The notes beneath the pieces are model-generated. The model made no database searches, had not been told where the DNA came from, and worked only from the letters and a program-made list of their open reading frames with translations. DNA of 20,210 nucleotides, from IMG/VR virus record IMGVR_UViG_3300040960_000812, positions 1 to 20,210 of that record; one strand, written 5' to 3'. Below, in pieces: positions 2,155-12,115 of the stretch; the stretch's first letter is position 1; each line of letters opens with the position of its first letter. The position numbers and the translations under genes were made by a program. This DNA is from a virus.

Positions 2155-2221
2155 GGTTGTTCCTTTCGGTTGCGGGTGCGGTTTCCATGCGCAGGTGCGC
2201 AGGGTCTAGGGGGTGCGCCAT
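2147..2221 (-). CDS. Possible 24-aa micro-ORF
   Basis: A 24-codon frame starts with ATG inside a TGATG overlap with the stop of the methyltransferase (2221-2223) and ends eight bases into the next gene. The predicted peptide begins MAHPLDPAHLR. It exactly bridges the 66-base gap between two operon genes in an arrangement that fits translational coupling, but it is too short to judge by composition. It may simply be spacer that carries the ribosome site of the 144-aa gene. Confidence 0.25.
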   Translation of the reverse strand: MAHPLDPAHLRMETAPATERNNHV

Positions 2222-3180
2222 CAGGCCACCGTCACTTCATTGAGCAGCGGGCCGTCGTCGTAGATGCGTGACTCAGCAAGTGCTGCGTAGTCGGGGTTGA
2301 GTTCAATGCCGATGAAGTTGCGGTCATGTCGCAGCGCGACTACGCCGACAGTGCCGCTGCCTGCAAACGGGTCAAGAACGGTGTCACCGGACCTCGAGCC
2401 AGCCAAGAGGCATGGTTCAACAAGTCCGATTGGCATGACTGCAAAGTGCGCACCGCTGAATGGCTTGGTGGCTATGGTCCAAACGCTGCGCCGGTTGCGG
2501 GTTTCCGTTGTTGTCCCGTACTTGTCAAGGTTGTGATTGCGCCCGATTGCTGCAATGGCGCGTGGGTCTTGGCTGTATTGCTTGCCACCACCCCGATGCT
2601 GACCTGCAGTCTCTGCGGGTTCAGCGATTGCGTCAGCGTTGTAGCGATACTGCGCCGACTTGGTCAGCAGAAACACGTACTCATGCGCCTTGGTACAACG
2701 GTCGATCACACTTTCCGGCATTGGGTTTGGCTTGTGCCAGATGATGTCTTGGCGCAGCCACCAGCCGTCGGCCTGCAGGGCAAAGGCGACGCGCCATGGG
2801 ATGCCGACAAGGTCTTTGGTTTTCAATCCGTGTTTTGTTTTGATCGTTTTCATGCTCTGCCCGTTGTGCTCAGCCTTGGTGCCGACCAGCGTGCTTGAAC
2901 TGTCCGGCCCGCCGCTGCCCTTTGTGTCGCTTGCGTAACTGTCGCCAAGGTTGAGCCACAGCGTGCCGTCATCTGCAAGCACTCTGCGCACTTCAACAAA
3001 CACTGCAACCATCTCGGCCACGTAGTCGTCAGGCGTTTGCTCTAGTCCAATCTGACCTTCGTGCCCGTAGTCACGCAGACCCCAATACGGCGGAGATGTG
3101 ACAACGCATTGCACGCTGCCGTCGGGCAGCTCTTGCAGCCGCTGGCGCACGTCGCCAACGAGGATGCGAGCACTAGTCAC
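2221..3180 (-). CDS. DNA amino-methyltransferase, beta class (SPPY type, 319 aa)
   Basis: This is an S-adenosylmethionine-dependent methyltransferase for an exocyclic amino group of adenine or cytosine. The catalytic motif IV TSPPYWGLRDYG lies at residues 28-39 and the AdoMet-binding motif I DPFAGSGTVG at 270-279, followed by IGIELNPDY. Catalytic motif before motif I is the beta-class order. SPPY with a preceding Thr is most often linked to N4-cytosine enzymes, though N6-adenine cannot be excluded. A central segment of about 200 residues should hold target recognition. Start is GTG 3180; its GTGA overlaps the stop of the nuclease gene. No restriction partner sits beside it, so self-protection of phage DNA or regulation fits better than a restriction system. 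Confidence 0.9.
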   Translation of the reverse strand: MTSARILVGDVRQRLQELPDGSVQCVVTSPPYWGLRDYGHEGQIGLEQTPDDYVAEMVAVFVEVRRVLADDGTLWLNLGDSYASDTKGSGGPDSSSTLVGTKAEHNGQSMKTIKTKHGLKTKDLVGIPWRVAFALQADGWWLRQDIIWHKPNPMPESVIDRCTKAHEYVFLLTKSAQYRYNADAIAEPAETAGQHRGGGKQYSQDPRAIAAIGRNHNLDKYGTTTETRNRRSVWTIATKPFSGAHFAVMPIGLVEPCLLAGSRSGDTVLDPFAGSGTVGVVALRHDRNFIGIELNPDYAALAESRIYDDGPLLNEVTVA

Positions 3181-3989
3181 GGCACGTACTTCTCAATGGG
3201 CTTGGACTTGTAGACGGCGCGCACAGCGGTGGCGGTCTTGGCGAGTTGCCAGCCCACGGTCAGGTCGAGCAGGTAGAGATCGCATTTGGCTTTGCCTGCG
3301 GGCAGGTGGATCAGCAGCCCGACCTCGGTGCTGACCTCGTTCTCGGGCAGGTAGGCCAAGCGCTGTTGTTTCTCAATGTCGTAGCGCCAGGAGTGGGCGT
3401 AGATTGCGCACTGGGTGGTCACGCCGTGCGGGTAGCTCGGCTCTGTCGCGCCGGTCTTGAGGTCAGCAACCACAAGGCGCCCGTCAGGCAGACGCACGAG
3501 GCGGTCAAGCGTCCCGGCAGCCTTGAGGTGGTCGTTGACCACAAACATCTCCGTGGCCACCACCTTCAGCGGCTCAGTGGCCAGCGCGTAGGCGTCCAGG
3601 TCAGCGGCGTGGTTGGGAGGGATGGTGTCGAGCGTTCCGCGATCCATCTGCTCAGTAAGGGCGTGCAGCGTCGTGCCGATGTTGGCGGCCTTATCGCTCT
3701 CGGCTGCCTGCATCGCGCCGTCCACAATTTCCTTGAGCGCTTTCTTGTCGCTGGGGTCGGTGATCGCTGCCCGCTCAGCGAGGTCGGGGCGTTTACCTAG
3801 ACCCACGGCGGTCATGCGTTGCATCCACTGCATCAGCCCTTCTTTGCTGTCAAGGGCTTTGGCGAGCGTGGACACGCGCACGTATGGCTCAGGCTTGCCA
3901 CCGTCGGGTGGCTGGATAAGTGGACGGCCCCAGCGGTCGCGGGGTACGTCGGGCGCATCTATCGGCGCGAAGGTGATCTCAGCGGTCAT
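3177..3989 (-). CDS. PD-(D/E)XK nuclease, RecB/Cas4-like (270 aa)
   Basis: This is a nuclease of the RecB/Cas4 branch of the PD-(D/E)XK superfamily, common in actinophage replication modules. Visible motifs in order: GTTLHALTE (105-113, the His motif), AAGTLDRLV (157-165, metal-binding Asp), VVADLKTG (173-180, the D-x-K catalytic pair) and QCAIYAHS (193-200, the Q-x3-Y motif). There is no four-cysteine cluster, so it lacks the Fe-S element of true Cas4. It probably works as an exonuclease in recombination or end processing. Start ATG 3989 overlaps the stop of the upstream micro-gene as ATGA and has AAAGGAAGAA upstream; its stop overlaps the methyltransferase start. Confidence 0.88.
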   Translation of the reverse strand: MTAEITFAPIDAPDVPRDRWGRPLIQPPDGGKPEPYVRVSTLAKALDSKEGLMQWMQRMTAVGLGKRPDLAERAAITDPSDKKALKEIVDGAMQAAESDKAANIGTTLHALTEQMDRGTLDTIPPNHAADLDAYALATEPLKVVATEMFVVNDHLKAAGTLDRLVRLPDGRLVVADLKTGATEPSYPHGVTTQCAIYAHSWRYDIEKQQRLAYLPENEVSTEVGLLIHLPAGKAKCDLYLLDLTVGWQLAKTATAVRAVYKSKPIEKYVP

Positions 3990-4175: not shown

Positions 4176-4263
4176 GGTAGAAGGCGTGGACGACCGAGGC
4201 AGGCCAGCGGTCAATGTCGGCAACGGAGTAGCGGTAGGCGATGACGGCGCGGGGATCGGTCAC
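4147..4263 (-). CDS. Small hypothetical protein (38 aa)
   Basis: This micro-gene starts at GTG 4263, whose GTGA overlaps the stop of the upstream methyltransferase, and ends in a GTGA overlap with the Cys-rich gene. The predicted product begins VTDPRAVIAYRY and contains VADIDRWPASVV, a compact amphipathic-looking sequence, and ends QHLRTKDVK. An in-frame GTG one codon earlier (4266) is an alternative start. No family is recognised. The case for coding rests on gap-free packing between two clear genes and on the shared HLRTK tail with its neighbour. Confidence 0.65.
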   Translation of the reverse strand: MTDPRAVIAYRYSVADIDRWPASVVHAFYQHLRTKDVK

Positions 4264-5600
4264 CACAGCACCTGCTCAATCGGCTTGGACAGGCGCTGGA
4301 CGATCAGCGGAAGGTAGTCCTCGGTCAGCTCGATGCCGATGACGTGGAAGCCCTCAACCACGCAGGCCTCAAGAGTCGTGCCGCTGCCGGCGAACGGCTC
4401 CAACACCGTCCCGCCTGGTGGCGTGACTAACTTGACCAGGTAGCGCATGAGGTCAAGGGGTTTGACGGTTGGGTGTGCAGTGTCGCCGTCGCGGGGGCGT
4501 TCACTGGCGTTGGCTTTGGGGACGTAGAAGAAGCGGGACGCGCCGACGGTGTCGTCATGGCCGCCACGATCATCAGTCCGTGGTTGCGCACCATCGCCGT
4601 TTACCGTCCATGTGCTTCCACTTGCTCCACCGCTGCGGCTGACGCTGACCCCACTCTGCCTGTCCAACTCGGCGGCCTGCGACTCGTCGAGGATGACGTT
4701 GGCGGGCCAGCGGCCTTTGTCTATTGTCGTGTAAGGCAACTTGTCTCGGTCGGCGTAGGCAGCCTTATCCTGCCCATAGTTGCCGCCTCGTATGTCCTGC
4801 ACTTCATAGGTGCGCGCCTCTCCGGTTCCAGTCCCAATCCGCGACCCGTCAATATTCAACGCACCCGTGCCGTGCCGCAGCACGTTCTCAGCCACCGTGC
4901 CGTCCAGTGGCTTACGCGCCACCACAATCGGCTCAAACGCGGGCTTGAGTGCGGTGCCCCAGCCCTGCCACTGCTGGGCGGCGGGGGTTGCGGGGGCGGT
5001 GATGTCGCGTACTACTTGACCAGACTCAAAGCCTGCGTCAGCGTTCCGCCGTTCTGCGCGGGTGTATGCCGCACCAGTAATAGATGAGCCGACAACCTCA
5101 CGCTGCACCCCCGCCGCCTTGTCAATCGCCTTGGACACGTCCAGCGATTTCGGAAACCCGCTGCCGTACATCCACGCAATCGAGTCGCGCACCTCAAACC
5201 CTGCGTCCTCAATCGCCACCGCCAACCGATGCCAGGTGCGGGTGCCGCCGAACGCGAGCAGGTGGCCGCCAGGCTTGAGGACGCGGAGGGCTTCAGAAGC
5301 GACCTCGGTGAACCATGCCTGAAACCCCGCCATGGCGTTTCCGTCGCGCCCGTACCTGATGCGGCTCCTGCTGAATGGATTACCGCCAGCACCGTCCTGA
5401 AAGCCACCGACGCTCGCCGGATCATCAACGACGTCACCGTTGTTCTTCCACGGCGCATCCCAGTCCTTGCCCATGAACTCCAAGCCATACGGCGGGTCAG
5501 TCACCACCGCGTCCACGCTTGCCTCGGGCAGCGAGCGCATAACGTCAATGCAGTCGCCGTGGTGCAGCGTCACCAGGTCGTCGCTGTAGTAGACGCTCAC
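4260..5600 (-). CDS. DNA amino-methyltransferase, beta class (DPPY type, 446 aa)
   Basis: A second beta-class methyltransferase, unlike the one at 2221-3180. Motif IV VTDPPYGLEFMGKDWD lies at residues 33-48 and the AdoMet motif EPFAGSGTTLEA at 401-412, followed by IGIELTEDY. DPPY favours N6-adenine methylation. The long central region (about 100-360) includes HPTVKP-LDLMRYLV just before motif I, typical of phage methyltransferases, and presumably the target recognition domain. Start was set at GTG 5600 because its GTGA overlaps the upstream stop; an in-frame ATG at 5621 would add only seven residues and deepen the overlap. No cognate endonuclease is visible. Confidence 0.88.
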   Translation of the reverse strand: MSVYYSDDLVTLHHGDCIDVMRSLPEASVDAVVTDPPYGLEFMGKDWDAPWKNNGDVVDDPASVGGFQDGAGGNPFSRSRIRYGRDGNAMAGFQAWFTEVASEALRVLKPGGHLLAFGGTRTWHRLAVAIEDAGFEVRDSIAWMYGSGFPKSLDVSKAIDKAAGVQREVVGSSITGAAYTRAERRNADAGFESGQVVRDITAPATPAAQQWQGWGTALKPAFEPIVVARKPLDGTVAENVLRHGTGALNIDGSRIGTGTGEARTYEVQDIRGGNYGQDKAAYADRDKLPYTTIDKGRWPANVILDESQAAELDRQSGVSVSRSGGASGSTWTVNGDGAQPRTDDRGGHDDTVGASRFFYVPKANASERPRDGDTAHPTVKPLDLMRYLVKLVTPPGGTVLEPFAGSGTTLEACVVEGFHVIGIELTEDYLPLIVQRLSKPIEQVLW

Positions 5601-5941
5601 AGCGGTTGCCCCCATCCGCACTCGCGCAGCACTTCCACGAACGCGCCCAAGCGGATCACCACCGGCCAGTCCTCAACGGACGCTGGGCCTTGGCCGTCCA
5701 GGCGCAGCACCGCGAACGGCAGCAAGGTGTCCTCAGCACGCTCGGCTTGCTGGCGCATGGCGGCGGCTGGGTTGAAACCTCGACGCGCTTTCACCTCAAT
5801 GTCTAGGCCGGGCACGCCGGTTACGTCGGTGCCGTCACGTCCAGCGCCGACCGGCTCGGCGTAAGGGAAACCGTGCGTGCGCAGGTAGTCGGCAACGATG
5901 CGTTGGCTGGCGTAGCCACGGTGCTTGCGGTGTTGGGTCAT
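5597..5941 (-). CDS. Small PD-(D/E)XK nuclease, resolvase-like (114 aa)
   Basis: A compact nuclease-like protein with the layout of Holliday-junction resolvases and VRR-NUC proteins: an N-terminal basic helix (HRKHRGYASQRIVADYL), then GAGRDGTDVTGVPGLDIEVKAR (given here in two parts: GAGRDGTDVTG at 32-42 and VPGLDIEVKAR at 43-53), which carries candidate catalytic D39, D47, E49 and K51. A C-terminal strand pair (LLPFAVLRLDG, DWPVVIRLGAF) completes the fold. The start is the ATG at 5941, in an ATGA overlap with the C5 methyltransferase stop. A longer frame back to 6049 was rejected because its first 36 residues overlap that gene. It could resolve replication or recombination intermediates, or be a nicking enzyme. 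Confidence 0.75.
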   Translation of the reverse strand: MTQHRKHRGYASQRIVADYLRTHGFPYAEPVGAGRDGTDVTGVPGLDIEVKARRGFNPAAAMRQQAERAEDTLLPFAVLRLDGQGPASVEDWPVVIRLGAFVEVLRECGWGQPL

Positions 5942-6999
5942 GCGGCACCGCCCAGCAACTGCAGCGCGAGTGCTGCCTGCTGCGGCACGACACCATTGCC
6001 GAGCATCTTGAGTTGTTGAGATGCGCTCAGGCCGTGACCGGTGACCCAACCTTCAGGCAGGCCCATCATCCATTCGACAAAGACGGGATTTAGGCGATCT
6101 CGTCCTGCTCGCTGAATAGTGGGGCTTGGTGATGGGCGTCCGATGACGTGCTGCCAGCGGTCAATGGCGGGGGCGTAGTCGCCCCAACGCGCAACGCTTC
6201 CTGTTCCAGGCTCTTGCCGTGCGGCGCTGGCCTGCCGTCTGCTGCCCTCTGGCGGGCTGCCCATTCGTCCCAGGCTTGCGGGTCCTTCCCCGCTCCCATG
6301 TCGTTCACCTCCGGCGTCGGCAGTAATGCCAGAGCGTTCTCCAAGTTCTGAGGCCCAACGTCCCGACGCCAGATGTTCTGATTTCGTGGCTCGCCGTTCT
6401 GCGCCCGCGGCGTCGGCAAATGCACTACTTGTTCTCGCAGATTGCCTGTTGCTTTGCGGTTCTTGCGCCCGCCCTGGTTCTTCGCCTTCTGGTAGGCCTC
6501 GCCCGTCCTGGCCGGCAGGTTGTCCATCGTCGTTGGAGTCGCCAACAACGATGAACAGGCGCGCTCGATTGTGGGGCGCTCCGGCGTCGGCAGCTCGTAC
6601 AACTCCCCACCGTGCAGACAGCCCCAGGGCGGCAAGGTCAGCGAGGACATCTTCAAAGCCCAAAGTGAGGTGGCCTCGGACGTTTTCCAGCACTGCTCGT
6701 TGGGGTCGTAGGACGCTAAGGGCATCCCTGACATAGGGCCACAGGTGTCGTTCATCTGCTGTGCCTTTCCTTGCTCCGGCGTTGCTGAATGGCTGGCAGG
6801 GGTATCCGCCTGTAATGACGTCAACTGGCTCAACCTCGGCCCAATCCACCTTGGTGATGTCGCCCAGGTTGGGCACGCCTGGGTAGTGGGCTTCCATGAC
6901 CTTGCAGGCCGCTGGCTCAATCTCGGAGTACCAGGCGAGATCGCCACCGACGGCCAGGTCTAGGCCGCCGTAGCCGCTGAACAGGCTGCCGACCTTCAT
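5938..6999 (-). CDS. DNA cytosine-5 methyltransferase (353 aa)
   Basis: A C5-cytosine methyltransferase with motifs in standard order: motif I LFSGYGGLDLA (6-16), motif IV GGYPCQPFSNAG with the catalytic Cys at 68, motif VI ENV (105-107), motif VIII GAPHNRARLFI (140-150), and C-terminal LGNGVVPQQA (motif X type). Just before it, FVEWMMGLPEGW is typical of phage enzymes. Between about residues 155 and 290 lies a hydrophilic low-complexity stretch with ADAxG repeats. Start ATG 6999 (MKVGSLF) was chosen over an upstream ATG at 7098 because the longer form would read through the operator region. It is the first gene of the leftward operon. It likely protects phage DNA; no restriction partner is seen. 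Confidence 0.93.
   Translation of the reverse strand: MKVGSLFSGYGGLDLAVGGDLAWYSEIEPAACKVMEAHYPGVPNLGDITKVDWAEVEPVDVITGGYPCQPFSNAGARKGTADERHLWPYVRDALSVLRPQRAVLENVRGHLTLGFEDVLADLAALGLSARWGVVRAADAGAPHNRARLFIVVGDSNDDGQPAGQDGRGLPEGEEPGRAQEPQSNRQSARTSSAFADAAGAERRATKSEHLASGRWASELGERSGITADAGGERHGSGEGPASLGRMGSPPEGSRRQASAARQEPGTGSVARWGDYAPAIDRWQHVIGRPSPSPTIQRAGRDRLNPVFVEWMMGLPEGWVTGHGLSASQQLKMLGNGVVPQQAALALQLLGGAA
6090..6947 (-). other. Long overlapping open frame (285 codons) inside the C5 methyltransferase, +1 frame, with LPTP repeats
   Basis: A same-strand frame, one base downstream of the methyltransferase frame, stays open from ATG 6947 to TAA 6090. It encodes recurring motifs: YELPTPERP, SSLLATPTTMD, VHLPTPRAQNG and ALLPTPEVND, followed by QAWDEWAARQ. 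I recall predicted phage proteins with LLPTP repeats joined to C5-methyltransferase-like C-termini, so the frame may not be purely accidental. It lacks a clear ribosome site of its own. High G+C often produces open shadow frames, so it is recorded as a candidate, not a gene. Confidence 0.25.
6312..6592 (-). repeat. Three in-phase copies of an 11-bp unit
   Basis: The minus-strand word TGCCGACGCCG occurs at 6582-6592, 6408-6418 and 6312-6322. Spacings of 174 and 96 bases are multiples of three, so all copies read A-D-A in the methyltransferase frame and L-P-T-P in the +1 frame. A degenerate fourth unit lies near 6540. Confidence 0.8.
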
Positions 7000-7031
7000 G
7001 CGACACCCCCAAAACTTTCTTGGAAATGTCC

Positions 7032-7061
7032 TTGACTTGTATATACGGCCTGCCTTAGTCT
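7032..7061 (+). promoter_or_regulatory. Candidate sigma70-type promoter for the plus-strand RHH operon
   Basis: TTGACT (7032-7037) is separated by 18 bases from TAGTCT (7056-7061), a -35/-10 pair of moderate quality. It lies 31 bases upstream of the ATG at 7092, which has GGGAG five bases before it. The spacer and the -10 both overlap the operator-like repeats. A promoter for the leftward C5 methyltransferase should lie in the same 92-base gap but no convincing hexamers were found for it. Confidence 0.45.
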
Positions 7062-7091: not shown

Positions 7092-7412
7092 ATGACAACC
7101 ATCAACTTCGACACTCTTGTTGCACTTATCAAAGATCGAGGAATGCCTGCTCAAATTGAGCAAACTGGAGGTGGCTGCGCCACCATTTACGTTGGAACAC
7201 CTGGCGCAGATGGTCTTTTCCAGGCTGTCGCTGGCCCAGGCTGGTTTGAGGGTCCAGGTTGGACCAACGGCCGCGGCACTTTTGAGGAGTTTTGCTGGGG
7301 TCTTGACGACTTTGGTGGCGAAACCGACCCGCACTACGAAAGAACGCCAAGGCCTTTGGCTGATATTGCCGACGACATCGTTGCGCTTGCCCGGCAGGTG
7401 TCTAATGCCTGA
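7092..7412 (+). CDS. Conserved phage hypothetical protein (106 aa)
   Basis: First gene of a two-gene plus-strand operon. The N-terminus (MTTINFDTLVALIKDRG) looks helical and is followed by IEQTGGGCATIYVG and AVAGPGWFEGPGW, a glycine- and aromatic-rich beta region, then acidic WGLDDFGGE and a C-terminal helix. I recall small actinophage proteins sharing the TGGGxATIYxG and AGPG motifs, without known function. The start ATG has GGGAG upstream and the gene overlaps the RHH gene by eight bases. Co-transcription with a small regulator raises the possibility of a regulator/partner pair, but nothing in the sequence marks it as a toxin. Confidence 0.8.
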   Translation: MTTINFDTLVALIKDRGMPAQIEQTGGGCATIYVGTPGADGLFQAVAGPGWFEGPGWTNGRGTFEEFCWGLDDFGGETDPHYERTPRPLADIADDIVALARQVSNA

Positions 7413-7536
7413 CACCCCACGCGCCATCCGCATCCCTGACGACCTATGGCAGGCAGCCTTGGATAAGGCACACGCCAACGGCGACACACTTTCCGACATC
7501 GTGCGACGCGCCCTGGAGCGGTACGTCAAGCGCTGA
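7405..7536 (+). CDS. Ribbon-helix-helix (Arc/CopG-type) DNA-binding protein (43 aa)
   Basis: A 43-residue protein with the complete ribbon-helix-helix pattern: strand RAIRIPD (6-12), helix A DLWQAALDKAHANG (13-26) and helix B TLSDIVRRALERYVKR (28-43). Such proteins dimerise and bind palindromic or tandem operator halves through the strand. The start ATG lies inside the upstream gene (eight-base overlap) after GCAGGTG, so the two are coupled. The gene is missed by 60-codon cut-offs. It probably represses its own operon, and possibly the divergent C5 methyltransferase, through the palindrome at 7058-7073; that link is inference. It ends four bases before a convergent gene. Confidence 0.82.
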   Translation: MPDTPRAIRIPDDLWQAALDKAHANGDTLSDIVRRALERYVKR

Positions 7537-7540
7537 CCCA

Positions 7541-7768
7541 TCACTTGATCGCCTCCAAGAGCGCCTGCCTATGTGCGGGCGCTTCTTGGTCGGTGCCGTA
7601 CAGCGCAAACCACAGGTAGGCCTGGCGTCGTAACTCGCCGCCGCCGTCTGCTTCATGCCAGGCCTCATTGAGTTGACCCATGACGTGGGTGAGTCGTCGC
7701 TGCCATTGCGCCTTGGCGCGGGCGTCCATCACCTTCAACTCGTCAGCGGTCGGGATAACGATGGGCAT
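7541..7768 (-). CDS. Small hypothetical protein (75 aa)
   Basis: Last gene of a four-gene minus-strand operon. The start is taken as ATG 7768 (MPIVIPTADELKV), which shares its A with the upstream stop (TGATG); a longer frame to 7891 would overlap the upstream gene and carries an unlikely Arg/Pro-rich extension. The protein is mostly helical by eye, with charged KVMDARAKAQWQRRLTHVMGQ (21 residues at about 11-31; key features are alternating basic and hydrophobic positions) and a C-terminal YLWFALYGTD. No family is recognised. Confidence 0.65.
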   Translation of the reverse strand: MPIVIPTADELKVMDARAKAQWQRRLTHVMGQLNEAWHEADGGGELRRQAYLWFALYGTDQEAPAHRQALLEAIK

Positions 7769-7947
7769 CAGAACTCCGACCCAGGCACCATGTTCTGGTG
7801 CCCAAAGGCGAGGAGGTCGGCTTGGTGTTCTTGGTCGCTGTGCGCGTAGCAGAACAAGCGCTCCACCTGGCGGTCGTCCACCTTCACCCACCAGTAGGCG
7901 GTGGCCTCGCGGTCACAGTCGTCTAGTTGGCATTGCACGATGCTCAT
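7768..7947 (-). CDS. Small protein with zinc-finger-like Cys/His pattern (59 aa)
   Basis: Start is ATG 7947, in an ATGA overlap with the transglycosylase stop; a longer frame from 8049 is rejected for overlap. The short product carries CQLDDC (Cys 6 and 11), then CYAH (Cys 33, His 36), a C-x4-C...C-x2-H arrangement that could bind one zinc ion, around a strand TAYWWVKVDD. The spacing is like small treble-clef or zinc-ribbon phage proteins that I recall with C....C.R.A......V.....LFC..H. Its function is unknown. Confidence 0.7.
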   Translation of the reverse strand: MSIVQCQLDDCDREATAYWWVKVDDRQVERLFCYAHSDQEHQADLLAFGHQNMVPGSEF

Positions 7948-8390
7948 GACCAGCAGCTCGTTCCCGGCACGGTGTGCCGCCAGTGGCCTCGACCATCGCC
8001 GCCGTCCCAGACAACCCAGAAGGCAAAGTCCTGCCAGAACGGTGCCCACTGGTTCATGGAGTGGCTCCGCAGCCGCTTGCCGATAGCGCGGGCTTGCTTC
8101 TTGGGAGTGCCGGTGGCGATCAACTCGCGCTGGATCATCCAGCCAGCGCCCACCGCCAACTCAGGGCTGAATTGGTAGGCCCCTCGATACCTGCCGGTGC
8201 GCGACACAGCGCGGTAATCGTTCTTGGATTCTCGCTGGCGCACGCATAGCCGCTTGGCGTTGTCGCGCTTGACGTAGTGCCGGCCCTGGTACAGCGAGAT
8301 GGGGCTGTCATGGGTCTTGGGGCCAACCTGGATGGGGTCTACCTCTGGCCCAGCCGCCATCACCAGCGCCAGCGCTGCCTCAGCAATCAT
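7944..8390 (-). CDS. Rpf/lysozyme-like transglycosylase (148 aa)
   Basis: The core CVRQRESKNDYRAVS (49-63) followed by GRYRGAYQFS (66-75) is the signature of resuscitation-promoting-factor-like and related actinobacterial transglycosylases, with E54 the likely catalytic acid cleaving the peptidoglycan glycan strand. FWQDFAFWVVWDGGDGRGHW (118-137) fits the C-terminal part of the domain. C49 and C146 could form a disulfide, which would suit an extracytoplasmic site. The N-terminus has a short hydrophobic stretch (AALALVMAAG) that is a weak export signal at best. It is coupled by ATGA to a one-helix membrane protein upstream. It could act in lysis, in superinfection or host wall remodelling, or as a prophage-expressed host-benefit enzyme. 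Confidence 0.78.
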   Translation of the reverse strand: MIAEAALALVMAAGPEVDPIQVGPKTHDSPISLYQGRHYVKRDNAKRLCVRQRESKNDYRAVSRTGRYRGAYQFSPELAVGAGWMIQRELIATGTPKKQARAIGKRLRSHSMNQWAPFWQDFAFWVVWDGGDGRGHWRHTVPGTSCWS

Positions 8391-8563
8391 CGGGCTACCC
8401 GCTGGGCGTCGTAGGCCATTGCGGCCTCACGGCGAGCCTGGCGCTCCATGGCGATCAGGCGGCGGGAATACAGGTGCTGGCGCTGCCGGTGCAGCCGTGA
8501 GCAGGTAGCCCACGCCACCCACCAAGTGAGGCCTGTCCAGGCACCTAGAATCAGGATCTCCAT
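8387..8563 (-). CDS. Small single-helix membrane protein (58 aa), holin-like candidate
   Basis: This 58-codon gene starts at ATG 8563 after a very strong ribosome site (AAGGAGGGG) and ends in an ATGA overlap with the transglycosylase. Residues 3-20 (ILILGAWTGLTWWVAWAT) form one Trp-rich membrane segment; the rest is strongly basic and helical (RLHRQRQ, RRLIAMERQARR). One membrane segment with a charged tail, placed directly before a wall hydrolase, fits a small holin, pinholin or membrane anchor. No family is recognised, and a separate r1t-type holin exists at 11891-12115, so function stays open. Confidence 0.75.
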   Translation of the reverse strand: MEILILGAWTGLTWWVAWATCSRLHRQRQHLYSRRLIAMERQARREAAMAYDAQRVAR

Positions 8564-8631
8564 GCTTCCCCTCCTTGGGTCGGCCTGGGGGCCGGGTTTA
8601 CGCAGGACTCCGACCCCCAGGCACGAAAAGA

Positions 8632-8668
8632 CCCCCCAGGCGTCGCGGGGGGCACGACGCCTGAGGGG
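8632..8668 (-). terminator. Hairpin, probable leftward terminator
   Basis: Arms 8632-8645 and 8655-8668 pair over 14 positions with one mismatch around a 9-base loop. Read leftward, the stem is followed by TCTTTTC, a fair U-tract; read rightward there is none. It would stop leftward transcripts before the membrane protein/transglycosylase operon. Confidence 0.5.
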
Positions 8669-8777
8669 AGATTGAGTGCGCGAACCTGACGATCCGCTGA
8701 CAGATGCAGAAAGACATTTGGCTTCCGCACCTGGTTGCGCTTACTGTGTTGCATGACAGGCCCCCTCGCCTGTTCTG

Positions 8778-8903: not shown

Positions 8904-9719
8904 ATGTTTACCAACGGGGAAGTAGAAAAGAAAACGCAACACGCCGTCTGCGACATAATTGCGACATACGCAGTCTGGCTCCAAGCCCAGGGCTATGACC
9001 TGGACACCATCGCAGGCAAGGTGCGGCTGCTCAATCGGCTGCCCGCACCCCTGGAAACCGTCAGCGCTGACGATGTGCTGGCACTTATCGGTCAAGCAAC
9101 CAAGAACAGCAGCAAGCGCATTTATCTCAACAACCTGCGTCTAGCGTTCAAGGATCTCAAGAACCTGGGGCTTGTGCACCATGACCCCACGTTGGGGTTA
9201 CGCACTCCCCCAACTCAGCGCGGCAAGCCTCGACCGATACCAGTGGACGAGCTGGCGGTGCTGTTGACCATGCGCGAGCGCGAACGAGCCTGGACGATCC
9301 TGGGCTGGCGGGCAGGGCTACGAGCGGTGGAGGTCACCCGCGTGGAAGCCGAGCACCTTGAGCGCGGCGTGCACGGCTGGCAGTTACGCATCCCGCGTGG
9401 CAAGAACGACAAAGACGCCACGATCCCTGCACACCCTCAAGTGGTGGAGGTGCTGCGCAATGTCCACAGTGACGGGCCGCTGTGGCCGTTCCATTCTCGG
9501 TACATCTCGCGCAAGTGGCGAGAGATGGCTGAGGGCGTAGGCGTCACGGGCAGGCGGTTTCATGACCTGCGGCACACTTTTGCCACAAACGCCTACAAGG
9601 CCAGCGGCAATGATCTACTGGTGACTAAGGAGTTATGCCGGCACGCCTCGGTGCAGTCCACACAGATTTACGCTGGCATTGAGGATGAGCGGCCTTTTGA
9701 GGTTGTGGCTGGCCTGTAA
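8904..9719 (+). CDS. int: Tyrosine integrase (271 aa)
   Basis: A site-specific tyrosine recombinase. Residues 11-100 form the SAM-like core-binding domain; the catalytic domain follows. Catalytic residues can be placed: R140 in GWRAGLRAVEV, K167 or K170 in PRGKNDKDA, H220 and R223 in FHDLRHTFAT, H247 in LCRHAS, and nucleophile Y256 in QIYAG. The length is short, lacking an obvious N-terminal arm-binding domain, closer to XerC/D-like enzymes than to lambda Int. Start ATG 8904 follows GGAAAGGTGG. It is the only large plus-strand gene and is followed by a terminator. It indicates integration of the phage; neither attP nor an excisionase was identified. Confidence 0.93.
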   Translation: MFTNGEVEKKTQHAVCDIIATYAVWLQAQGYDLDTIAGKVRLLNRLPAPLETVSADDVLALIGQATKNSSKRIYLNNLRLAFKDLKNLGLVHHDPTLGLRTPPTQRGKPRPIPVDELAVLLTMRERERAWTILGWRAGLRAVEVTRVEAEHLERGVHGWQLRIPRGKNDKDATIPAHPQVVEVLRNVHSDGPLWPFHSRYISRKWREMAEGVGVTGRRFHDLRHTFATNAYKASGNDLLVTKELCRHASVQSTQIYAGIEDERPFEVVAGL

Positions 9720-11051: not shown

Positions 11052-11292
11052 AGTTGCACGCCCCTTTGCGGTGGATCTCAACCGTCTTGTTGTGGACGTC
11101 GTAACCTTCAGCGCGCAACGCCTCACCAATGTCGGTGCTGGCGATGCGGTCAGGATTGCCAATCTCCGTGATTAGGGCAGCATTCAAGGCTGCGCGCTCA
11201 GCGTCTGATAATTGCTCCAGCACCCAACCAAGACGGCAGCTCGTACCTCGACTACGACGAGGTGCCTGGTCCAACCGATCAGCAAGGGTCAC
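11035..11292 (-). CDS. Small helix-turn-helix-like protein (85 aa)
   Basis: The pattern GTSCRLGWVLEQL, then DAERAALNAAL, TDIGEALRAEGYDVHNKTVEIHRKGACNC (from about residue 54; split here as TDIGEALRAEGYDV and HNKTVEIHRKGACNC) resembles a small actinophage family ending in HRRGxCxC that is often described as helix-turn-helix DNA-binding. The IGEALRAEGYDVHNKTVEIH segment would be the HTH. GTG start overlaps the amidase stop (GTGA) and the gene overlaps the exonuclease start by 17 bases. Regulation of late genes is possible; this is inference. Confidence 0.65.
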   Translation of the reverse strand: MTLADRLDQAPRRSRGTSCRLGWVLEQLSDAERAALNAALITEIGNPDRIASTDIGEALRAEGYDVHNKTVEIHRKGACNCEPAK

Positions 11293-11891
11293 TTGTAACG
11301 CGCCGCCCAGCGTCGTAGTGCCAGCAGCGTGTAGCGGCTGTCAATCTTGCGGTTGGGTGCCCATGTCTTGTGGTTAGGCAAGCGCCGATAGAAGCCTTTC
11401 CAGCCAGCAGCGTCCTTGCAGGCGTTGGCGAGCTTGCCCAGCGATACCTTCTGCGCCTTGGTGAAGTCGCGCTTGAGGCCTTTGCTAACGACCTCGACGC
11501 CCAGCATGTAGTCGTTGCCAAGGTTGTCATTGATGCCCAGGCGGTCGTAGGGCTTGACTCCCTTGAACGATCCCCTACCCGCGTGCCACACCGGCCAGGC
11601 TGAGTGCACGTACACCGTGCCATCGCGGTCCAGAGTGAAGTTGGCGGCTGGCACCTTGTAGTGGTTCTGCACAAAGTTGACGATGCCGGCGTTGGCACCC
11701 TTGCGGTTGCCAGGGTGGTTGGGGTCACGGCTGGATGTTGCAGCGCCAGCGGTGTGATGGACCATCAGCGCCACGGGCACGCCCTTACGCGGCCAGGGCT
11801 TGCGGCGCACCTTGTCCCAGTCGTCAATGAACACAACCTTGTCGCCCAGGCGTTGACGCAAGGCGACTTCCAAAGTCTTAGCCCACGACAT
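11289..11891 (-). CDS. Endolysin: N-acetylmuramoyl-L-alanine amidase, amidase_2 fold (200 aa)
   Basis: A zinc amidase that cuts the bond between muramic acid and the peptide stem. Zinc and catalytic positions can be placed: MVHHTAG (43-49; His 45), PVWHAGRG (100-107), GVEVVSKG (131-138; Glu 133) and NHKTWAPNRKID (173-184; His 174 and Asp 184). The domain covers nearly all 200 residues; no separate cell-wall-binding domain is present. Its ATG overlaps the holin stop (TAATG), giving the usual holin-endolysin order. No signal peptide is seen, so release should depend on the holin. Confidence 0.92.
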   Translation of the reverse strand: MSWAKTLEVALRQRLGDKVVFIDDWDKVRRKPWPRKGVPVALMVHHTAGAATSSRDPNHPGNRKGANAGIVNFVQNHYKVPAANFTLDRDGTVYVHSAWPVWHAGRGSFKGVKPYDRLGINDNLGNDYMLGVEVVSKGLKRDFTKAQKVSLGKLANACKDAAGWKGFYRRLPNHKTWAPNRKIDSRYTLLALRRWAARYK

Positions 11892-12115
11892 TAGTCAACC
11901 TTCACGGCGCTCGGGTTCTCAGGATCATTGACACCGCTGGACACCAGCGAGGTCAGAACCGAGGCAAGAGCTGCAATGGCAGTGACCGAGGCGAACTGCT
12001 GCCAGTCAACATCAAGCACGCCGGTCTGGCCAACGACCCAGAAACTTAGGGCGACCTGTGCCCAAGTTTTGACGGCCCGCTCGGCGGTTTGCTTCCAAAA
12101 GGACAGGGACCACAT
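11891..12115 (-). CDS. Holin, r1t-like (74 aa)
   Basis: The N-terminus SFWKQTAERAVKTWAQVAL and VLDVDWQQFASVTAIAALASVLTSL match the phage r1t-type holin family common in phages of Gram-positive bacteria. Two membrane segments are visible (about 18-36 and 44-62), and the tail is acidic (NDPENPSAVKVD). ATG 12115 is preceded by GGAGGTAGAT. It forms membrane pores that let the amidase reach the wall. It sits just after a strong terminator, so expression needs read-through or a promoter that was not identified. Confidence 0.88.
   Translation of the reverse strand: MWSLSFWKQTAERAVKTWAQVALSFWVVGQTGVLDVDWQQFASVTAIAALASVLTSLVSSGVNDPENPSAVKVD

Follow-up and report, generated by a model that had tools for sequence, protein, structure and literature searches.

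A one-helix membrane protein and an Rpf-like enzyme appear to head early genes of actinobacterial viruses and may alter the host wall early

Phage enzymes that cut the cell wall are usually filed either as late lysis proteins or as virion proteins for entry. Among the closest described systems is Tgl of the staphylococcal kayviruses, a secreted, early-transcribed enzyme with an Rpf/SLT-type lysozyme core that lyses only once the proton-motive force has been dissipated, and that complements an endolysin with amidase/CHAP activity (PMC7150955). Rpf-like 'hydrolases' are likewise known in Streptomyces phages (Stanwilliamsviridae, e.g. Kenrey gp21), where an exported-looking Rpf-type domain with a long linker is encoded in a tRNA/thyX/methylase cluster, with the endolysin on the other strand, and where the annotation shows no one-helix gene directly upstream. 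Wall-cutting motifs shared with actinobacterial proteins also occur in mycobacteriophage tape measures (mt3 of TM4; Rpf-like motif 1 in Barnyard), in which they are part of the virion and are used at entry (PMC1796659). Among cellular proteins, the catalytic domain of RpfB, RpfC and RpfE (PF06737) belongs to secreted actinobacterial proteins with a lysozyme-like fold, a catalytic Glu, a G-x-x-Q-F region and a Cys pair.

The window analysed here, the whole of a 20,210-bp IMG/VR virus record that is probably a fragment, carries a four-gene cassette whose second product, P2, resembles each of these. It shares with Tgl a phage origin, an Rpf/SLT-type lysozyme core and the company of a separate major endolysin; Tgl, however, is of a different subfamily, its signal peptide is experimentally shown, and tgl sits a few genes from lysK whereas the P2 gene does not adjoin its endolysin that closely. 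We know of no one-helix gene coupled to tgl. P2 and the Streptomyces-phage 'hydrolases' have the exported-looking Rpf-type domain in common, with about 33% identity over half of a P2-family query (E 0.02-0.9), and P2 and the tape-measure motifs a wall-cutting character, although P2 would be a free, early-coded protein. Fold, catalytic Glu, Q-containing region, Cys pair and likely secretion recall Rpf, but in the P2 family some 20-25 additional residues (approximate count) separate the motif from the C-terminal part, a Cys stands at -5 of the Glu where Rpf has one at -1, and there are no accessory domains and no Pfam score. What is new is a family that lacks a profile, is widespread in uncultured actinophages, appears to head an early operon with a one-helix partner, and can be replaced by another enzyme in the same slot.

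The cassette and its leader

All four genes lie on the minus strand, which the first-pass annotation had left unnamed, and are preceded by a structured leader:

8632..8668, minus strand: intrinsic-terminator-like hairpin, 16 pairs then TCTTTT; L002 and L139 keep the structure but differ in stem sequence
8583..8622, minus strand: second leader hairpin, GCCTGGGGG ... CCCCCAGGC, between terminator and ribosome-binding site
8568..8576, minus strand: strong ribosome-binding site of P1, AAGGAGGGG; conserved as AAGGAGGG in L002 and L139
8387..8563, minus strand: P1, 58 aa; one predicted N-terminal transmembrane helix, then a basic helical tail
7944..8390, minus strand: P2, 148 aa, Rpf-like (lysozyme-superfamily) transglycosylase-like protein; Glu54, Cys49, Cys146; N-terminus short, hydrophobic and signal-peptide-like
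7768..7947, minus strand: P3, 59 aa; C-x4-C ... C-x2-H pattern
7541..7768, minus strand: P4, 75 aa, no function assigned; kept in L002, L003, L010 and L139

The first-pass annotation had described this as a translationally coupled operon with a strong ribosome-binding site, a one-helix membrane protein, an enzyme bearing RESKNDY and a small Cys/His protein, and in these respects it was right. P1 and P2, like P2 and P3, overlap by a 4-nt ATGA and P3 and P4 by a 1-nt TGATG; AAGGAGGGG at 8576-8568 precedes the P1 start; and P3 carries the pattern listed, a possible zinc site. The one predicted helix of P1 is weak in hydropathy (Kyte-Doolittle maximum 1.4, as against up to 2.8 in positional counterparts); the charges of P1 predict an N-out/C-in topology. 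Values of dN/dS between the window and L003 are 0.24 for P1, 0.18 for P2, 0.51 for P3 and 0.24 for P4, and over comparisons of the window with L002, L003 and L008 those of P1, P2 and P4 span 0.18-0.30 (P1 alone 0.24-0.30). These ratios indicate coding, conserved genes, with clear purifying selection on P1, P2 and P4 and weaker selection on P3.

The leader spans 8564-8690 (minus strand) in the window, 5035-5161 in L002 and 610-738 in L139, and in all three a terminator hairpin with a U tract, a GC-rich second hairpin and AAGGAGGG recur, the stems altered yet still complementary, that is, with compensatory changes. The leader resembles an attenuator, or a site of antitermination, heading an early operon. 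A search upstream of P1 turned up no consensus sigma70-like promoter in the window, which as a whole gave neither an Rfam nor a tRNA match.

Rpf likeness and spread of the P2 family

That P2 is Rpf-like, as first proposed, is borne out by an invariant Glu54, the fit of its model to RpfB, RpfC and RpfE, and a bridging enzyme in L139. Glu54, Cys49 and Cys146 are invariant in a 20-member alignment, the RGAYQ motif is conserved in the family, and Glu54, which in P2 lies within RESKNDY, is invariant across all aligned relatives; an alignment of 51 proteins from phages, from chromosomes and of the Rpf type keeps Glu54 throughout and places it on the Glu of CESGG in RpfC. As in the Rpf domain, the catalytic Glu of P2 closes the first helix, and a G/Y-x-G-x-x-Q motif comes after it. 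When a profile of the joint alignment (phage, chromosomal and Rpf proteins) was searched against the PDB, the top matches were eight Rpf entries (RpfC/B/E; RpfC at 2.9e-6), while a phage-only profile gave no relevant match to PDB sequences. An AF2 model of P2 (m15a23cb42abf; pLDDT 87, pTM 0.84), built from an alignment that includes Rpf relatives, has an Rpf-type lysozyme-like fold, and VIA-align placed it with RpfB at Z 8.7 (79/80 residues, 2.7 A), RpfC at 8.6 and RpfE at 8.3, ahead of phiKZ gp144 and c-type lysozymes; Foldseek E values were weak. A first model from 20 phage sequences (pLDDT 78, catalytic loop poor) retrieved only unrelated helical proteins with Foldseek and VIA-align.

The cellular Rpf proteins were picked by the shared motif, so that their motif likeness was selected for, and the unselected bridge is the enzyme of L139, to which P1 led and no enzyme motif. 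Its homology to P2 extends over 114 aa at 31% identity (E 2e-8), and its match to PF06737 (E 1.4e-4) scores 22.9 bits, below the curated cut-off of 27. P2 falls short of that cut-off too: it has no match in Pfam or PHROG, and neither it nor its relatives match PF06737 at E<=1. P2 is accordingly filed as Rpf-like and not as a PF06737 member. The catalytic segment of the P2 family recurs in canonical Rpf proteins (PF06737) from Acidimicrobiia.

Relatives of P2 occur on 37 IMG/VR contigs besides the window at 39-81% identity, a count that leaves out two shorter matches resembling canonical Rpf-like proteins, and grouping at 90% identity, with L015 and L016 joined by eye, gives about 19 lineages (the enzyme rows of L015 and L017 were read by eye using stop-to-stop frames). 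Among 50,697 phage records, tblastn with P2, L111 and L117 found no match, and the L004 homologue found weak Streptomyces-phage matches only. Lower-GC phages also carry the enzyme with no one-helix partner directly upstream (L109 at 7917-8384, L111 at 3425-3934 on a contig of 40% GC, L112 and L113); the family therefore spans very different phage groups.

Full-length, secreted-looking relatives are encoded on the chromosomes of 33/119 sampled genomes in one actinobacterial order (E <= 1e-30), which may be the freshwater Nanopelagicales in the GTDB sense; several of these copies adjoin genes that read as fumarase-like and PhoH-like. Because of these homologues and of WhiB-like genes in related operons, gene content points to a host among the Actinomycetota. 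Recent capture of the phage gene from a host was considered and rejected, as the chromosomal relatives group in a single clade of the tree, to which none of the phage proteins belongs.

This kinship invites the reading that P2 remodels the stationary-phase wall or makes muropeptides, so that the infected host or its neighbours grow and the phage replicates in starved cells. The nearest characterised structures are those of Rpf, the secreted chromosomal relatives and the WhiB-like gene in the early operon of relatives agree with it, host rpf genes rise during infection of Rhodococcus by phage WC1 (PMC10986025), and a wall-hydrolase motif of a mycobacteriophage tape measure aids infection of stationary cells (PMC1796659). 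Likeness of fold to Rpf, however, does not show signalling, and in the kayvirus precedent a similar enzyme gives lytic help; we hold growth stimulation to be possible but doubtful. That P2 should be a resuscitation factor encoded by the phage, waking or sustaining starved actinobacterial cells and possibly uninfected neighbours, is unlikely.

Genomic position, partner and export

Three features of the window bear on the position of the cassette:

11891..12115, minus strand: r1t-type holin of the late lysis module (Pfam E 1.7e-26)
11289..11891, minus strand: Amidase_2 endolysin of the late lysis module (E 1.5e-12)
8904..9719, plus strand: tyrosine integrase (context; profile search); L010 and L139 have none next to the cassette

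The separate holin and amidase at 11289-12115 were already recognised in the first pass, and profile search confirms both. In relatives the gene order runs from tail genes through a small one-helix gene, an r1t-type holin, the endolysin, an exonuclease-like gene and two small genes to a terminator, the cassette and early genes, the last reading as nuclease-like, WhiB-like, RecB-like, single-strand-binding-like and primase-like. In 11 related contigs of one group, an intrinsic terminator is followed by TTGACA-N18-TAGTNAT and then by a pair of the P1-P2 type, and within these contigs that promoter occurs nowhere but before the cassette. Since terminator and promoter precede it there, the pair would therefore head an early operon. 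The early expression first suggested for the cassette thus has sequence support in these relatives, with their terminator and dedicated promoter, but such a promoter was not found in the window. The enzyme lies kilobases from the holin-endolysin pair in every contig showing both, and in none of the contigs examined is it, or any homologue, placed inside the late lysis operon. Other genes of the window were noted in passing. Three in the early region, on the minus strand (2221-3180, 4260-5621 and 5938-7050), read as DNA methyltransferases, and a 43-aa Arc-like repressor, a candidate regulator, lies at 7405-7536 on the plus strand, convergent to the cassette (PHROG 6506, E 1.4e-13 with a longer frame); its counterparts in L002 and L003 match it at about 88-90% identity, and L010 has it too.

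Being first in an early operon with an early-type promoter in relatives and a probable wall location, exported P2 and membrane-bound P1 might alter the wall and so block injection by later phages. Nothing in the evidence is specific to such superinfection exclusion, though; muralytic enzymes more often help entry than block it, and the cassette is conserved in phages with no adjoining integrase, so that we rate this role as quite improbable.

The site beside the integrase, to which the first-pass annotation had attached meaning, does not carry it: L010 has the same cassette without an integrase and L013 with one inserted, and L139 has no integrase, so that the integrase neighbourhood is best read as incidental. 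The same comparison (L010 against L013, and L139) led to rejection of the idea that the cassette serves lysogenic conversion as part of the integrase region. In L002, a match to the integrase's first 32 codons only (4729-4824, minus strand) lies in a gap of about 550 bases, apparently the remnant of a lost integrase. Nor are the four genes kept together as a set, as had been supposed: only P1 and P2 are regularly found together, while P3 and P4 come and go, P3 being kept in L003, L008, L014, L114 and L139 and absent from L002. L139 is closely related to the window and conserves P1, P3 and P4, but where P2 would lie between them (909-1376) it encodes a divergent Rpf-like enzyme whose signal peptide looks classical, an arrangement indicating that the enzyme was swapped.

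Immediately upstream of the enzyme, a P1-like gene is present in 11 lineages that share one synteny block and hence are not independent (the window, L002 with two such genes, L003/8, L009-13, L014, L015/16, L018/22/24/25, L019/20, L023, L114 and L139), and not in nine (L004-7, L017, L021, L108, L109, L111, L115, L116 and L117); as a background rate, 62/411 other adjacent same-strand gene pairs have an upstream gene of one-helix type. Between groups the P1 counterparts are barely alignable, but they have a common layout of helix, basic region and helical tail. The two tandem one-helix genes before the enzyme in L002 (5162-5553), of which the second is about 36% identical to P1, are likely a duplication of the P1-type partner.

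Signal peptides that look classical begin the enzymes of L108, L111, L115 and L139 as well as the chromosomal homologues, whereas the leader of the window-group P2 is short, Ala-rich and hydrophobic with no positive n-region; this leader may suffice as a signal, or P2 may depend on P1 for export. The pair of conserved cysteines, Cys49 and Cys146, might form a disulfide like the one that ties the catalytic helix to the C-terminus in Rpf; their presence is in keeping with a location outside the cytoplasm, and P2 is probably exported.

One-helix membrane protein and muralytic-type enzyme, tightly coupled in translation, had suggested a self-contained second lysis cassette, with P1 as holin or pinholin and P2 as endolysin for alternative or prophage-triggered lysis, and the Ala-rich, weakly hydrophobic leader could indeed be a signal-arrest-release domain. 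Profile search, however, matched P1 to no holin family, and of its counterparts a single one, in L114, touches an Rz-like spanin profile (E 0.009). Moreover, nine lineages carry the enzyme with no one-helix gene directly upstream, homologues have cleavable-type signal peptides of their own and therefore would not need a holin for export, and a canonical holin-amidase pair exists apart from the cassette, which is not itself a holin-family member beside an endolysin in a late operon. The proposal does not survive this comparison well, and we consider such a lysis role very unlikely.

An accessory wall hydrolase as the favoured function

In each of the window, L002 and L014 the late endolysin that was identified is an amidase, and its bond specificity and that of P2 would therefore be complementary. 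Because the window's late endolysin is an amidase in which profile search found no glycosidase domain, a division of labour between it and P2 like that of Tgl is plausible by analogy. Given the Tgl precedent and this amidase-only late endolysin, we favour, at a rough probability of one half, the reading of P2 as an early-made, exported, Rpf-type accessory wall hydrolase that complements the late amidase as Tgl does; Rpf-like remodelling or growth stimulation ranks next, and a lysis cassette and superinfection exclusion are less likely. The reading builds on what the sequences show, namely the conservation of the family, its invariant Glu, the fit to the Rpf fold and the separation from the late module, together with the dedicated early-type promoter and the classical-looking signal peptides of relatives. 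For this phage we infer the enzymatic activity of P2, the export of the window's protein, its timing, its cooperation with the amidase and any role of P1. P2 would be made early in infection as an Rpf-type transglycosylase; its hydrophobic N-terminal leader would take it across the membrane, perhaps with help from the translationally coupled P1. Loaded into the host wall, it would nick glycan strands there and be tolerated while the membrane stays energised; once the r1t holin collapsed the membrane potential, P2 would cooperate with the late Amidase_2 endolysin, which would cut a different bond. Against an accessory hydrolase count the lack of a Pfam or PHROG match, the failure of the phage-only profile to match the PDB and the inclusion of Rpf relatives in the alignment behind the model, as well as the short leader with no positive n-region, the failure to find a sigma70-like promoter before P1 in the window and the distance of the gene from the endolysin, unlike tgl.

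If P2 did act as a resuscitation factor, it would let the phage replicate in soil and freshwater populations that are largely dormant. More broadly, the P2 family adds a second case beside kayvirus Tgl, and exported-looking kin of Rpf in what appears to be an early operon make the question of whether phages edit the actinobacterial wall or growth state early in infection directly testable.
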